Assembly: GCF_008124715.1 (NCBI RefSeq)
Contig: NZ_VNHO01000012.1
Location: 1 to 64,000, forward strand
DNA from: Thermosediminibacter litoriperuensis
GTDB taxonomy: Bacteria; Bacillota; Thermosediminibacteria; Thermosediminibacterales; Thermosediminibacteraceae
DNA length: 64,000 nt
Direction of reading: 5' to 3'
Positions 4,259 through 47,368 of this stretch are shown piece by piece (position 1 is the first letter of the stretch; every line of letters begins with the position of its first letter). Position numbers and translations under genes: made by a program. The notes under the pieces are model-generated. The model saw only the letters and a list, made by a program, of their open reading frames with translations, was not told where the DNA came from and did no database searches.

Positions 4259-4743
4259 AATTGCGGCTGGACGAGGTTAAACTTCCCAACGGAAAAACAT
4301 CCACCAGAGAAATCGTTGAACACCCGGGAGCGGTGGCCATTGTGGCCATAGACGACGACGGAAGTGTTCTCATGGTGAGGCAGTACCGCAAACCAGTAGA
4401 AGAGGAACTCCTTGAAATACCGGCCGGTAAACTAGAGGATAATGAAGATGTGAGAGCCTGCGCCCAAAGGGAACTCATAGAAGAAACCGGTTACAGGGCG
4501 GAAAATCTTGTACATATCATTGACTTCTACACATCGCCGGGATTTTCCAATGAAAAAATGTCTTTATTTATAGGGCGGAATTTGAAGAAGGCGGCAGGAA
4601 AGGCCGATGAAGACGAGTATATTAAGATGGAAAAAATCCCCTTCGAACAAGCAGTAAAAATGGCGTACAGCGGCGAACTGAAAGACGCAAAGACTATCGT
4701 AGGTCTTTTCCTGGCATACTCCTATTTAAGAGGAGAATTTTAA
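4201..4743 (+). CDS. nudF: ADP-ribose pyrophosphatase, Nudix hydrolase
   Basis: 180 aa. It hydrolyses ADP-ribose and related nucleoside diphosphate sugars to AMP and sugar phosphate in the cytoplasm. The Nudix box spans residues 76-98: G76, E82, then R90-E91-L-I-E94-E95-T-G97. The preceding VRQYRKPVEEELLEIPAG is the typical NudF substrate-side motif. The ribosome site GGAGGCTGGAGG lies in the end of the DUF3866 gene, and the stop overlaps the next start as TAATG, so it is translationally coupled to the endonuclease Q gene. Confidence 0.9.
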   Translation: MDFFEVTINSKNIYSGKILKLRLDEVKLPNGKTSTREIVEHPGAVAIVAIDDDGSVLMVRQYRKPVEEELLEIPAGKLEDNEDVRACAQRELIEETGYRAENLVHIIDFYTSPGFSNEKMSLFIGRNLKKAAGKADEDEYIKMEKIPFEQAVKMAYSGELKDAKTIVGLFLAYSYLRGEF

Positions 4744-5912
4744 TGGAATATTTCGCAGACTTACACGTTCACATTGGACGAGCCGCCGGCAAGCCAGTAA
4801 AGGTAACTGCTTCCCGGCAACTGACCCTGGATGGCATTATTAGGACATGCCTGGAAATAAAAGGCATTGATATCGTGGGATTGGTGGATTGCGCGTCACC
4901 CTACGTTCTTAGAGAAATAAAACATAAGATCAATTCGGGAGAATTGATAGAGCTGGCGAAAGGCGGACTATCGTATCAGGGTAAGTTGACGCTGATCCTC
5001 GGCTCCGAAATAGAAACCCAGGAAAGTAAAGGGGTTGCCCACAGCGTCGCCTATTTTCCGAACATCGAACAGATGGAAGAATTCTCCATAATAATGAGCA
5101 GATTTATTAACAATATAGGGCTAAGTTCACAGAAGGCTCGACTCAGAGCCAGGCAACTGCTTTCCATAGTCAACGATTTGGGCGGCAAGCTTATTCCCGC
5201 CCATGTCTTTACCCCATTTAAAAGCCTTTACGGCAGCTGTTACGATAGAATGTCCAGGGCTTTTGAAGAAGGGTTCAATGAGGTTATAGCCGTGGAACTG
5301 GGGCTGAGCGCCGATACGCAGCTGGCCGATAGAATAAAGGAGCTCGCCGGCAAACAGTTCGTCAGCAATTCTGACGCCCATTCCTTGGATAAAATAGGCA
5401 GAGAATATAATGAAGTTCGGCTCGATGCACCGGATTTCGAAAATTTATTTGATGCCCTGGAAGGCAAATCAGATCAAAGGAAGATACTGGCTAACTACGG
5501 TCTTGACCCGAGATTGGGAAAGTATCACAGGACCTGTTGTCTTTCCTGCAATTACATAGCTGAGGAACCGCCGCCGGTTAGTAAATGTCCCAGGTGTACG
5601 AGCGACAAGGTTGTCATGGGAGCTCTTGATAGGATAACGTTTATCGCCGATTATGATGAAGCCGTTCATCCCCCCGGAAGGCCTCCTTATTATCATCAGG
5701 TACCGCTGGAATTCATACCCGGGATAGGTAAAAAGACGCTGGAAAGGCTGTTAAAAGCTTTCGGCAACGAGATGAACATCGTCCACCATGCGGACCCTGA
5801 GGAACTCCATAAAGTGGTGGGGGCAATTGTGACGGAAAAGATAATTGCCGCTCGAGGGAAATTAAAGCTCAAAGTCGGCGGCGGGGGCGTGTACGGAAAG
5901 ATAATGTTTTGA
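4743..5912 (+). CDS. Endonuclease Q family protein (PHP domain, zinc ribbon, helix-hairpin-helix)
   Basis: 389 aa. N-terminal PHP domain opens with DLHVHIGRA and continues through SNSDAHS near residue 218. A zinc-ribbon follows at about 260-285 (CCLSC then CPRC), then a helix-hairpin-helix, IPGIGKKTLERLL, near 328-340. EndoQ enzymes cut DNA 5' of deaminated bases (uracil, hypoxanthine, xanthine) and abasic sites; they are known from Thermococcales and some Bacillus. The order PHP, zinc, HhH fits that family (TIGR00375), though some homologues are annotated as helicase-like or phosphoesterase. It directly follows the Nudix gene, suggesting a nucleotide-sanitation and repair pair. Confidence 0.8.
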   Translation: MEYFADLHVHIGRAAGKPVKVTASRQLTLDGIIRTCLEIKGIDIVGLVDCASPYVLREIKHKINSGELIELAKGGLSYQGKLTLILGSEIETQESKGVAHSVAYFPNIEQMEEFSIIMSRFINNIGLSSQKARLRARQLLSIVNDLGGKLIPAHVFTPFKSLYGSCYDRMSRAFEEGFNEVIAVELGLSADTQLADRIKELAGKQFVSNSDAHSLDKIGREYNEVRLDAPDFENLFDALEGKSDQRKILANYGLDPRLGKYHRTCCLSCNYIAEEPPPVSKCPRCTSDKVVMGALDRITFIADYDEAVHPPGRPPYYHQVPLEFIPGIGKKTLERLLKAFGNEMNIVHHADPEELHKVVGAIVTEKIIAARGKLKLKVGGGGVYGKIMF

Positions 5913-5922
5913 GTTATATTGA

Positions 5923-5966
5923 ATCTCCTCCCAGCATAATATTTTATAAGTGGACGGGGAGGAGAT
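5923..5966 (+). promoter_or_regulatory. Hairpin that masks the spoIIM ribosome-binding site
   Basis: ATCTCCTCCC at 5923-5932 is perfectly complementary to GGGAGGAGAT at 5957-5966, leaving a 24-nt loop. The 3' arm is the spoIIM Shine-Dalgarno site, five bases before the TTG start, so the folded mRNA would hide it completely. There is no T-run after it, so it is not a terminator. The same layout occurs before dacF. Confidence 0.65.
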
Positions 5967-5971
5967 ATCCT

Positions 5972-6598
5972 TTGAATTATTTAATAATAAAGCTTGCCGA
6001 TTACATGAAAAGAAATTTGGGGTATTATTTTATTCTCTCTTTTATTCTGGTGGCAGGAGTCATAGCAGGAAGCGTGTCGGTCAAATTGCTGTCAGACCCT
6101 CAAAAGCAGGAGCTTTTAAACTACATTGAACTGTTTTTTACCAACGTGCAAAATGTAAACATAGATTCATCTACGGTATTTTATGCATCGGTTCTCAATA
6201 ACCTCAAAACAGCGTTGGTGATTTGCCTTGCAGGCCTTCTAGTCATTAGTTTCCCTGTAATACTGATAGTGATCTTTTTCAGAGGATATATCTTGGGCTT
6301 CACTGTGGGATTCCTGGTCGTGGAATTCGGTATAAAGGGGAGCATTTTCGCCCTTCTCTCCATCCTTCCTCAGAACATAATTATAATACCGGCCATTATT
6401 TCGATAGGGGTTACAGGAATGTATTTCGCGGTAACTGTAATTAAAAACCGGCGAAGAATGCATCAGGATGGATATTTCAGCATGCTTTTAAGTTACATGC
6501 TGTCAAACCTGTTTTTCTGCTTTTTTTTAATACTGGCAGGTTTAATAGAGGGTTATATTTCGCCCCTATTCATTAAACTTATAACATCTTACATATAA
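5972..6598 (+). CDS. spoIIM: Stage II sporulation protein M
   Basis: 208 aa from TTG 5972; the strong GGGGAGGAG at 5956-5964 sets this start, and it gives a length close to known SpoIIM (about 214 aa). It has five or so membrane helices, including a first one right after the N terminus and a conserved LPQNIIIIPA-type loop. SpoIIM with SpoIID and SpoIIP forms the septal peptidoglycan-degrading complex needed for engulfment of the forespore; it anchors the complex in the mother-cell membrane. It is the last gene of the run that begins at steA. The start is likely gated by the hairpin at 5923-5966. Confidence 0.85.
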   Translation: MNYLIIKLADYMKRNLGYYFILSFILVAGVIAGSVSVKLLSDPQKQELLNYIELFFTNVQNVNIDSSTVFYASVLNNLKTALVICLAGLLVISFPVILIVIFFRGYILGFTVGFLVVEFGIKGSIFALLSILPQNIIIIPAIISIGVTGMYFAVTVIKNRRRMHQDGYFSMLLSYMLSNLFFCFFLILAGLIEGYISPLFIKLITSYI

Positions 6599-6656: not shown

Positions 6657-7544
6657 ATGGAGGACTTATTAAAACAATTTTTAGAATTTTTAAGTATCGA
6701 AAAAGGCCTTGCCCGCAATACAATTGAATCCTATAAAAGAGATTTAAAAAGTTACCTGTTTTTTTTAAGATCCCAGAATATTACGGATATCAAATTCACA
6801 TCGAAAACCACTATAATATCGTATCTCTTGCTCATGCAGAAAAGCGGCAAAGCCAGTAGCAGCATTTCGCGGGCTTGCGCTGCGATTAAATCTTTTTATC
6901 ATTTTCTGGTACGCGAACGTTACATTAAAGAAGACCCCACCATTAATCTTGATACTCCTAAACTAGAAAAAAAACTGCCTAGGGTTTTAACCGTAGAGGA
7001 GGTGGAGAGACTCTTAGAACAGCCCGATACCAGTGATCCACTTGGTTTTCGGGACAAAACAATGTTGGAGTTATTATATGCGACCGGAATAAGGGTATCG
7101 GAATTGATTTCTCTGACGGTGGATGATGTAAATCTTGATATGGGGTTTTTGCGCTGCCTGGGGAAAGGCTCCAAAGAGAGAATCGTACCTATCGGTTCTT
7201 TCGCTGTGAATTACCTGCGGCGGTACATAAACGGAACCAGAGACCGGATACTAAAAGGAAAGAGCAGCAATATCCTTTTTGTGAATCACATGGGAGAAGC
7301 TTTAACCAGACAGGGGTTTTGGAAAATAATAAAAAAATACGCGCGTAAGGCGGGGATAAATAAAGAGATAACTCCCCACACGCTGCGTCACTCTTTTGCG
7401 ACGCATCTCATTGAAAACGGCGCCGATTTAAGAGCGGTACAGGAAATGCTGGGACATGCTGATATATCTACAACCCAGGTGTACACGCATATAACGAGGA
7501 CAAGGATAAAAGAGGTTTACGACAAAACCCACCCGAGGGCTTAA
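6657..7544 (+). CDS. xerD: Site-specific tyrosine recombinase XerD
   Basis: 295 aa from ATG 6657, which gives the standard N terminus MEDLLKQFLEFLSIEKGL; a weak GGTGATTGG precedes it. The N-terminal SAM-like DNA-binding domain covers about 1-90. The catalytic set is complete: R146 (ATGIRVSE), K170 (GKGSKER), H241 and R244 (HTLRH), H267 (GHAD) and nucleophile Y276. XerD with XerC or a second monomer resolves chromosome dimers at dif. The position just ahead of dacF and spoIIA is a conserved Firmicutes arrangement, which favours XerD over XerC or a phage integrase. Confidence 0.9.
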   Translation: MEDLLKQFLEFLSIEKGLARNTIESYKRDLKSYLFFLRSQNITDIKFTSKTTIISYLLLMQKSGKASSSISRACAAIKSFYHFLVRERYIKEDPTINLDTPKLEKKLPRVLTVEEVERLLEQPDTSDPLGFRDKTMLELLYATGIRVSELISLTVDDVNLDMGFLRCLGKGSKERIVPIGSFAVNYLRRYINGTRDRILKGKSSNILFVNHMGEALTRQGFWKIIKKYARKAGINKEITPHTLRHSFATHLIENGADLRAVQEMLGHADISTTQVYTHITRTRIKEVYDKTHPRA

Positions 7545-7555
7545 CTGATGAATAA

Positions 7556-7597
7556 CATTCCTCCCTAAAGGAAAATCTATGACTGAAGGGAGGAATG
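7556..7597 (+). promoter_or_regulatory. Hairpin that masks the dacF ribosome-binding site
   Basis: CATTCCTCCCT at 7556-7566 pairs perfectly over 11 bp with AGGGAGGAATG at 7587-7597, loop of 20 nt. The 3' arm contains the dacF Shine-Dalgarno GGGAGG (7588-7593). No T-run follows. It mirrors the hairpin before spoIIM. Confidence 0.65.
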
Positions 7598-7602
7598 ACT
7601 TT

Positions 7603-8775
7603 GTGATGTCACAAGCATTTAAAAATAGATGGCGGCAAATCGCCCTGTTCAGCCTGATTTTTTTTATAGGCGTCAATTTTACGGTATATGCCCAGCCTTT
7701 TCCTGAAATAAAATCCCCTTCGGCGATACTGATAGATGCGGGCACGGGTACGGTGCTTTATGAAAAAAATCCCCATGAAAAATTGGAGCCGGCCAGCATA
7801 ACCAAAATAATGACTCTGCTTGTGGCCTTTGAAGCGATCGAACAGGGGAAGGTAAAACTAGACGATAAAGTAAAGATAAGCGAGAGAGCGTGGAAGACCG
7901 GCGGAAGTCAAGTGTTTTTAGGACCAGGAGAGGAACAGACGCTGGAAACTCTGATGAAGTGTATTACAATAGCGTCGGCCAACGACGCATCGGTGGCTGT
8001 GGCTGAATATATAGGCGGCAGTGTCGACGGTTTTGTAAAGATGATGAACGAAAAAGCCAAAGCCCTGGGGATGAACAATACCAATTTTACAAATCCGCAC
8101 GGGTTGTCCGATCCCAACCATTATACTACAGCTTACGATATCGCCCTGATGTCCAAAGAGCTTGTGAAATACCCCAAATTCTTTGAATGGTCTACCGTAT
8201 GGATCGATTATCTGGAGCACACCGATAAAGAGCGCGAAGCCACAATGCTGGCCAATACCAATAAACTATTGGGAAAATACGAGGGATTGGACGGCTTAAA
8301 AACGGGGTTTCACGCAAAAGCAGGATACTGCTTCGCCGGTACCGCAAAGCGCGGTGACCTGCGCTTGATATCCGTAGTATTGAAATCCTCCAATTCCACT
8401 GAACGCTTTGAAGATACAAAAAAACTGCTTGATTACGGTTTCGGGAGGTACAACTCGGTACAGGTCGCGAAAAAAAATTCAGTATTAGCCAAGCTTCCTG
8501 TGGAGAAGGGTGTAAAAAAAGAAGTTGACGTTATAGCCTCCGACGACCTTAACATTTTAGTTGAAAAAGGAAAAGAAGGAACGATAAAGACGAAGTTGGA
8601 ATTACCCGATAGAATATACGCCCCCGTTGTAATAGGACAGAAAGTAGGTAAATTGATAGCAGAACAGGACGGAAAAATCGTAGGAGAGGTGGAACTTACA
8701 ATTTCCGAGGAAGTTGATAAAGCTGGATTATTTTATATCTTCAGAAAGCTGTTAGGAGGGTGGTTATACTTTTGA
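7603..8775 (+). CDS. dacF: D-alanyl-D-alanine carboxypeptidase, DacF/PBP5 family
   Basis: 390 aa from GTG 7603, nine bases after GGGAGG; ATG 7606 is equally in frame. A signal sequence (about residues 10-32) leads to export. The penicillin-binding motifs are all present: S65-I-T-K68, S125-A-N127 and K233-T-G. A C-terminal beta domain and a final amphipathic helix (GLFYIFRKLLGGW) anchor it to the membrane face. It trims the terminal D-Ala from peptidoglycan stem peptides. In Bacillus, dacF lies before spoIIA and acts in spore cortex cross-linking; the same neighbourhood here supports DacF. A terminator separates it from spoIIAA. Confidence 0.85.
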   Translation: MMSQAFKNRWRQIALFSLIFFIGVNFTVYAQPFPEIKSPSAILIDAGTGTVLYEKNPHEKLEPASITKIMTLLVAFEAIEQGKVKLDDKVKISERAWKTGGSQVFLGPGEEQTLETLMKCITIASANDASVAVAEYIGGSVDGFVKMMNEKAKALGMNNTNFTNPHGLSDPNHYTTAYDIALMSKELVKYPKFFEWSTVWIDYLEHTDKEREATMLANTNKLLGKYEGLDGLKTGFHAKAGYCFAGTAKRGDLRLISVVLKSSNSTERFEDTKKLLDYGFGRYNSVQVAKKNSVLAKLPVEKGVKKEVDVIASDDLNILVEKGKEGTIKTKLELPDRIYAPVVIGQKVGKLIAEQDGKIVGEVELTISEEVDKAGLFYIFRKLLGGWLYF

Positions 8776-8777
8776 AA

Positions 8778-8803
8778 AACGCACGCTGTGCGTTTTTTTT
8801 ATT
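8778..8803 (+). terminator. Rho-independent terminator after dacF
   Basis: AACGCAC and GTGCGTT form a 7-bp stem with loop GCT, followed by a run of T residues. It ends dacF transcription, so spoIIA relies on its own promoter. Confidence 0.85.
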
Positions 8804-19240: not shown

Positions 19241-19275
19241 AAAAAAGAGACACTAAAAGTGTCTCTTTTTTAAAA
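19241..19275 (+). terminator. Strong terminator after tsf
   Basis: AAAAAAGAGACACT at 19241-19254 pairs with AGTGTCTCTTTTTT from 19258, a 14-bp stem with a T-rich 3' arm; its A-rich 5' arm would also let it work on the other strand. Confidence 0.9.
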
Positions 19276-19343
19276 AAACAGCAGAATAAGAGAGGAATTT
19301 ATAACCAGAATATAGAATTAAACTTTTAAAAAGAGAGGGTTAA

Positions 19344-46596: not shown

Positions 46597-47046
46597 TTGG
46601 AGAGTGTAAAAGTCAAAGTAAAGCGAGTTGAAGGCGCTGAAGACCTGCCTTTGCCCAGATATATGACACCTCTGGCGTCAGGTATGGACTTATCCGCGAA
46701 TATCCAGCATGATTTAACCATAGAGCCGGGAAAATACGAAGTGATACCTACCGGCATCCAAATGGAAATCCCCCCGGGCTTTGAGGCTCAGATTCGCCCG
46801 AGAAGCGGGCTTGCGGCCAAATACGGGATAACTCTTTTAAACAGCCCGGGGACCATAGATGCCGATTACCGCGGGGAAATAAAGGTGGTTTTGATTAATC
46901 ACGGCACCAAAAATTTTACTATAAAGCGAGGTGATAGAATAGCCCAGCTGGTTATAGCACCTGTTTTCAGAGCCGAACTGGTAGAAATCGATGTTTTGGA
47001 GGACACTACAAGAGGTAACGGAGGTTTCGGGCATACGGGCGTATAA
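46597..47046 (+). CDS. dut: dUTP diphosphatase
   Basis: 149 aa from TTG 46597, six bases after GAGAGGAGA. All five trimeric dUTPase motifs are present: ASGMDLSA near 28-35, [11 protein letters not shown] near 67-77, [14 protein letters not shown] near 82-95, GDRIAQLVI near 110-118 and GNGGFGHTG near 139-147. It removes dUTP, keeping uracil out of DNA. Compare the Endonuclease Q gene at 4743. Confidence 0.94.
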
Positions 47047-47069
47047 ATTAAAAATATGCATTTTCCATC

Positions 47070-47104
47070 AATACCTCCCATAATATTATTTATGGGGAGG
47101 TATT
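47070..47104 (+). promoter_or_regulatory. Hairpin that masks the ymxH-like ribosome-binding site
   Basis: AATACCTCCC at 47070-47079 pairs with GGGAGGTATT at 47095-47104 (10 bp), and after a bulged G at 47094 a further 4 bp close the loop. The 3' arm is the ribosome site GGGGAGG of the gene starting at 47108. No T-run follows. Confidence 0.6.
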
Positions 47105-47107
47105 TAA

Positions 47108-47368
47108 ATGAGACTTGGTGAATTGAGCGGCAAGGAGATCATTAATCTCAGTAAAGGCGTAAAACTGGGAATTCTGGGTTACTGTGACCTTCTTGTAGAT
47201 GAAGCTACGGGTAAAATTGAGTACTTGCTGATACCAGGCAGGAGAAGCAGATTTTTGGCGTTCGGAGAAAAAAGTTACATCAGAGTATCGTGGGAGTCCA
47301 TTAAAAAAATTGGACCGGATACAGTGATATTAAATATTGAAGAACACAATCTCGAGAGGGGAATATAA
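47108..47368 (+). CDS. YlmC/YmxH-family PRC-barrel sporulation protein
   Basis: 86 aa, ATG a few bases after GGGGAGG. PRC-barrel-like beta protein: LGELSGKEIINLSKGVKLG and VDEATGKIEYLLIPG are the family pattern, known from the sporulation proteins YlmC and YmxH. Function unknown, possibly in RNA binding. Its ribosome site is in a strong hairpin. The RNase J gene starts 46 nt after it. Confidence 0.85.
   Translation: MRLGELSGKEIINLSKGVKLGILGYCDLLVDEATGKIEYLLIPGRRSRFLAFGEKSYIRVSWESIKKIGPDTVILNIEEHNLERGI

Follow-up and report, generated by a model that had tools for sequence, protein, structure and literature searches.

The DNA analysed here, referred to as the window, is a 64,000-nucleotide stretch of Thermosediminibacter litoriperuensis that includes three sporulation-related genes: spoIIM, dacF and a ymxH-like gene (Table 1). 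Each begins 59-61 nt behind the stop codon of a co-directional neighbour, and each has its Shine-Dalgarno (SD) sequence enclosed as the 3' arm of a hairpin. The spoIIM stem is a perfect 10 bp around a loop of 24 nt, that of dacF measures 11 bp around 20 nt, and that of ymxH 10 bp around 15 nt. A preliminary description of this DNA had claimed a perfect 10-bp hairpin, with arms 24 nt apart, hiding the spoIIM ribosome site, together with an 11-bp version at dacF and a 10-bp stem at the ymxH-like gene; a sequence check located all three, the spoIIM arms being exact complements that cover the SD. A scan for terminators returned no terminator-like site upstream of spoIIM, and none on the plus strand ahead of ymxH. 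One such site (8774-8798) does stand in front of spoIIAA, which has no such stem of its own, and separates dacF from spoIIAA-spoIIAB-sigF; because of it, co-transcription of dacF with the spoIIAA operon may not be the default in this organism. A second SpoIIM-family protein is encoded elsewhere in the same genome (G000; L001, contig C11, 67964-68485, minus strand).

Table 1. Hairpin arms, predicted promoter elements and neighbouring genes at the three leaders (window positions).
Feature	Sequence	Position	Strand	Remarks
Upstream neighbour of spoIIM, EndoQ-like		4743-5912	+	TIGR00375 family; co-directional; proposed read-through source
Predicted spoIIM sigma-E-like -35	TTATATT	5914-5920	+	Consensus match; 14-nt distance from the -10 preserved in relatives
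spoIIM lock, 5' arm (anti-SD)	ATCTCCTCCC	5923-5932	+	Changes in the order matched on the other arm
Predicted spoIIM sigma-E-like -10	CATAATAT	5935-5942	+	GCATA invariant in 18 aligned leaders
spoIIM lock, 3' arm = SD	GGGAGGAGAT	5957-5966	+	
spoIIM (stage II sporulation protein M)		5972-6598	+	TTG start at 5972; TIGR02831 above cut-off; Pfam SpoIIM
xerD, upstream of dacF		6657-7544	+	Proposed read-through source; own leader is an unlocked control
Predicted dacF sigma-F-like -35	GAATA	7550-7554	+	Conserved; one mismatch to consensus together with -10
dacF lock, 5' arm	CATTCCTCCCT	7556-7566	+	
Predicted dacF sigma-F-like -10	GGAAAATCTA	7570-7579	+	Conserved; 15-nt spacer contains the 5' arm
dacF lock, 3' arm = SD	AGGGAGGAATG	7587-7597	+	
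dacF-like D-alanyl-D-alanine carboxypeptidase		7606-8775	+	Pfam Peptidase_S11; upstream of spoIIAA-spoIIAB-sigF
dut (dUTP diphosphatase), upstream of ymxH		46597-47046	+	Proposed read-through source
Predicted ymxH sigma-E-like -35	GCATTTT	47058-47064	+	Consensus match; conserved
ymxH lock, 5' arm	AATACCTCCC	47070-47079	+	
Predicted ymxH sigma-E-like -10	CATAATAT	47079-47086	+	Consensus match; conserved; N14 to -35
ymxH lock, 3' arm = SD	GGGAGGTATT	47095-47104	+	
ymxH-like YlmC/YmxH family sporulation protein		47108-47368	+	TIGR02888 (spore_YlmC_YmxH) above cut-off

The same short leaders also hold candidate sporulation promoters. Scanning a single genome for sigma-factor promoter motifs proved too noisy on its own, and conservation was used instead; the sigma-factor consensus strings used for matching were taken as general background. 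At spoIIM, the spacer between the predicted -35 and -10 elements is the 5' arm of the hairpin, and transcription would be expected to start at about 5948-5950, within the loop. Differing from the B. subtilis sigma-E consensus at 3 positions, this promoter would not stand out by its consensus match alone; it is noteworthy because it is conserved.

Stems of this strength are more frequent in the window than chance would give. Under a null that pairs SDs with leaders belonging to other genes, they arise at a rate of 0.25%, against 3 of the 62 leaders in the window (about 0.15 expected; binomial P ~5e-4), which upholds the earlier claim that three sporulation-related hairpins in one window exceed chance. 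The genome-wide survey, which covered 1.93 of 2.34 Mb (1955 genes called, 1936 usable leaders), found stems with a score of at least 23 in 10 of 1936 leaders, against 1.0 expected (P ~1e-7). These ten include spoIIM, dacF, ymxH, sigG and a PRK06851-like ATPase gene, and at least two of them look spurious (an open reading frame at C10:23415 and a terminator-like stem with a 6-nt loop at C5:30532). A stem at pyrH (19262-19270 / 19328-19336) was also rejected, as it shares an arm of a terminator-like inverted repeat behind tsf. Raw duplex energy gave a slight excess across the genome, dominated by GC-rich leaders.

A further ranking took the 787 genes that follow a co-directional neighbour at a distance of 20-260 nt and asked how far 5' truncation frees the SD. 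Among the 24 SDs most freed, seven belong to genes that match NCBIfam sporulation models (yabP, sigG, cwlD, SpoIID/LytB, ymxH, lonB and sigK, with cwlD below its curated cut-off and SpoIID passing at domain level only), as against 0/24 random controls, 6 of which were judged from sequence without a family scan (P =.009); dacF is additionally found in the top 24. Stems are absent from the neighbouring housekeeping genes xerD, rnj and endoQ, as they are from spoIIAA. The top 24 are not all locks, because the sigK stem is present in this genome only and is not kept in relatives, and we claim no lock there. The stem of an M23 peptidase gene was likewise set aside, being confined to three genomes.

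Outside the window, the device is also carried by sigG, yabP and the PRK06851-like ATPase gene, none of which the preliminary description had named; this brings the predicted lock to at least six genes in a single organism. The sigG stem, which measures 7-13 bp in the order, has the arrangement proposed for B. subtilis sigG, and its predicted promoter (GAATA-N15-GGCAAAAATT) is of sigma-F type with one mismatch, as in dacF. The ATPase gene (L003, contig C1, 4845-5957, minus strand), which has the best-supported covarying lock, lies behind a surE-like gene and a short reading frame that we take to be YpmA-like. Its promoter motif (CACC...ATANNNTA) resembles a sigma-K promoter, and the gene is likely to be an uncharacterised sporulation gene. 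The strongest predicted lock in the genome belongs to a 208-aa gene of no known family (L052, contig C19, 2040-2666, minus strand), with a 17-bp perfect inverted repeat at the SD (TATCATAATTCCCCCTG / CAGGGGGAATTATGATA) and a 50-nt loop. An SLH-domain protein gene (C30:16653-17981, minus strand) and an HGSNAT-like acyltransferase gene (C15:44476-45156, minus strand) each carry a 9-bp stem at the SD whose loop contains a sigma-A-like TATACT, which suggests that the lock is not restricted to sporulation promoters. A perfect match to a sigma-G-like promoter (GCATA-N17-CATAATA) was seen at an 86-aa gene (C26:9520, minus strand).

The pairing is conserved across the order, which we surveyed in 22 genomes from 11 genera and two families, and the arms coevolve. 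Compensatory changes are seen at spoIIM (CTCCTCCC/GGGAGGAG becoming CCTTCCG/CGGAAGG) and at sigG (TTCCCCCTGT/ACAGGGGGAA becoming CTCCTCCT/AGGAGGAG). The clearest column-based evidence comes from the ATPase gene, whose leaders align in one register: 7 of 10 pairs are altered on both sides, and the covariation score is.484 against.302 when shuffled (0/500 shuffles). Column-based covariation is weaker for spoIIM and sigG because the register of the stem slides, and an alignment-free swap test was therefore added, in which the fit of each arm to its own partner is compared with its fit to the arm of another genome. This test, from which shared ancestry is not fully removed, gave P values of.0014 for spoIIM,.018 for dacF and.0002 for each of ymxH, sigG, the ATPase gene and yabP. 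None of the control leaders xerD (P.81), spoIIAA (.20) and rnj (.12) has a conserved stem or coevolution; endoQ, also a control, reached a nominal P of.011. Beyond the order the picture is mixed. In the spoIIM leaders of 23 members of the phylum the pairing coevolves (P =.0002), with clear locks in some, such as L341 (CTCCTCCCC/GGGGAGGAG ahead of GCATAAATATT), and none in others, while the sigG lock was not found in the leaders of 25 genomes outside the class (swap-test P.43), where the promoter type is shared.

What is kept along with the pairing is its position relative to the promoter. In 85/85 orthologous leaders that have both a stem and a promoter motif (spoIIM 16, dacF 14, ymxH 16, sigG 19, yabP 20), the midpoint of the 5' arm falls in the spacer between -35 and -10; by comparison, 39% of all stems in the genome fall within the same range of positions. 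In the aligned leaders of sigG, dacF and ymxH, few columns other than the SD are as well conserved as the promoter elements. Judged on folding energy only, the hairpin of spoIIM is modest (z = -2.0, with 9 of 200 shuffled sequences folding equally well); what makes the case for it strong is conservation and geometry.

Folding was assessed as the computed energy required to open the SD, which replaced the mean unpaired probability, a measure that gave no useful information on ymxH, spoIIM or the ATPase gene. For the long RNA, opening costs 8.5-14.3 kcal/mol at the window genes, against a genome mean of 3.8, and control leaders require 2.8-4.5 kcal/mol. Medians for the long RNA are 8.0 (spoIIM), 10.4 (dacF), 9.8 (ymxH), 11.4 (sigG), 15.0 (ATPase) and 13.9 kcal/mol (yabP); when the RNA is taken from the predicted start, they are 4.0, 1.7, 0.9, 2.6, 2.8 and 4.0 kcal/mol in the same order. 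Access to the SD in the predicted short mRNA is good for dacF (1.7 kcal/mol), ymxH (1.5) and sigG (3.3), and poor for spoIIM in this genome. For the spoIIM leader here, the values are 10.7 for the long and 8.2 kcal/mol for the short RNA (order medians 8.0 and 4.0), such that its unlocking looks only partial in silico because of a local fold in the predicted short RNA.

We consider it likely that the hairpins at spoIIM, dacF and ymxH are best explained as locks against read-through. Transcripts arriving from the gene in front, which runs in the same direction (EndoQ-like, xerD or dut), would carry both arms; such RNA would fold, the SD would be hidden and the sporulation protein would not be made. 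A sporulation sigma factor (of sigma-E type at spoIIM and ymxH, of sigma-F type at dacF) would instead initiate within the loop, and the resulting mRNA, predicted to lack the 5' arm because that arm sits between -35 and -10, would leave the ribosome site free. We infer the identity of the sigma factors, the start sites, the read-through and the effect on translation from the sequences themselves. Translational gating during sporulation, as the preliminary description had it, thus stands in one respect, in that the SDs of sporulation genes are masked, and is not supported in another, since the 5' arm precedes the predicted -10; the mechanism is probably the inverse, with the device more likely blocking translation of read-through mRNA, chiefly when the cell is not sporulating or when the transcript is in the wrong compartment. 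In two orthologues of ymxH (L164, L170) and one of yabP (L292), promoter motif and stem are both absent, a joint loss that fits a read-through lock because a gene dependent on read-through cannot afford one. Within one genus (L138-L140) dacF has kept the promoter and lost the arm, which the lock model permits but which shows the lock to be dispensable for dacF there.

It could be supposed that the sporulation mRNA is itself gated by a hairpin that yields to some factor, to a signal or, as in an RNA thermometer, to temperature. We regard this as improbable. The SD is indeed masked in any RNA that contains both arms, the short spoIIM RNA of this genome retains some local structure, and in B. subtilis the sigG mRNA is dampened 2-4-fold by a second, small 5-bp hairpin (PMC5942855). 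Gating is nonetheless disfavoured because each of the 85 leaders has its 5' arm ahead of the predicted -10, and hence outside the predicted sporulation mRNA. The loops have no conserved element besides the promoter sequence, and Rfam gave 0 matches above the gathering score in the 64,000-nt window. An RNA thermometer in particular is unlikely because the lock is still costly at 65 C: the three in the window require 5.8-8.6 kcal/mol against 1.1-1.5 for controls, and in this genome the lock costs 5.8-11.8 kcal/mol, which makes melting unlikely.

Less probable again is translational coupling, whereby a ribosome ending the upstream gene would unfold the 5' arm and open the SD, leading to co-production of the two proteins. 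At spoIIM and dacF the arm starts 11-12 nt past the upstream stop, within the range of a terminating ribosome, but coupling is disfavoured because this distance rises to 24 nt in ymxH and to about 20 nt in sigG and the ATPase gene, out of ribosome reach. Moreover, coupling would co-express functionally unrelated genes, would have no need for a promoter in the same 60 nt, and leaves the placement of the arm in the spacer unexplained. Least probable of all is that the stem is a by-product of purine-rich SDs facing pyrimidine-rich spacers, or mainly a terminator or attenuator: CT-rich spacers are able to pair with any SD and T-rich stretches follow some stems (the ATPase gene, yabP), but the arms fit their own partners better than those of other genomes, sigG outside the class has the same promoter type and no coevolving pairing, the terminator scan passed over spoIIM, dacF and ymxH, whose stems have no T tract, and loops of 15-30 nt are untypical of terminators.

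A read-through lock is not without precedent. According to the account in PMC5942855, a hairpin at B. subtilis sigG (spoIIIG) was proposed to block translation of spoIIGA-sigE read-through (Masuda 1988; Sun 1991); transcripts of the sigG promoter itself are unable to form it. The stem there is described as 20 bp or more, whereas most of the stems described here have 7-14 bp, with the 5' arm placed precisely between -35 and -10, and the device is found also at spoIIM, dacF, ymxH, yabP and the PRK06851-like gene. The 5-bp hairpin at the B. subtilis sigG ribosome site likewise occludes the SD of a sporulation gene with leader sequence, but it lies within the sporulation mRNA, whereas the arm described here is upstream of the predicted start. 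A further parallel in design is phage T4, in which the SDs of gene e, soc, 49 and I-TevI are held in a helix in early long transcripts (with 100-fold less lysozyme), while transcripts from the late promoter, which lies within the region encoding the 5' strand, lack that strand and are translated (PMC3014915, PMC2988022). As at T4 gene e, the SD of the long transcript would be hidden here and the predicted short transcript would lack the 5' strand; T4, however, uses a phage timing switch with no cellular developmental sigma-factor cascade, and its sequences and promoters differ. The type of mechanism is therefore known from T4 lysozyme and has been proposed for B. subtilis sigG, and what is new is that a single sporulation programme uses it repeatedly. 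A full-text search of open-licence papers found no account of such sporulation locks beyond sigG.

Sporulation genes often lie behind vegetative genes, and read-through would lead to mistimed synthesis of engulfment, cortex or sigma-factor proteins, or to their synthesis in the wrong cell. Promoter-spacer bases that double as an RNA lock would explain how read-through is controlled without terminators, and would turn the single case of B. subtilis sigG into a recurring design. An anti-SD inside a spacer may also serve as a sequence signature for locating sporulation promoters. Only tentatively do we extend this to a sporulation-wide insulation code, in which early sporulation promoters behind housekeeping genes would be selected for an anti-SD in the spacer. 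If true, transcription initiation by the sporulation sigma factor and permission to translate would be written in the same bases, and compartment-specific expression would be kept clean without terminators.
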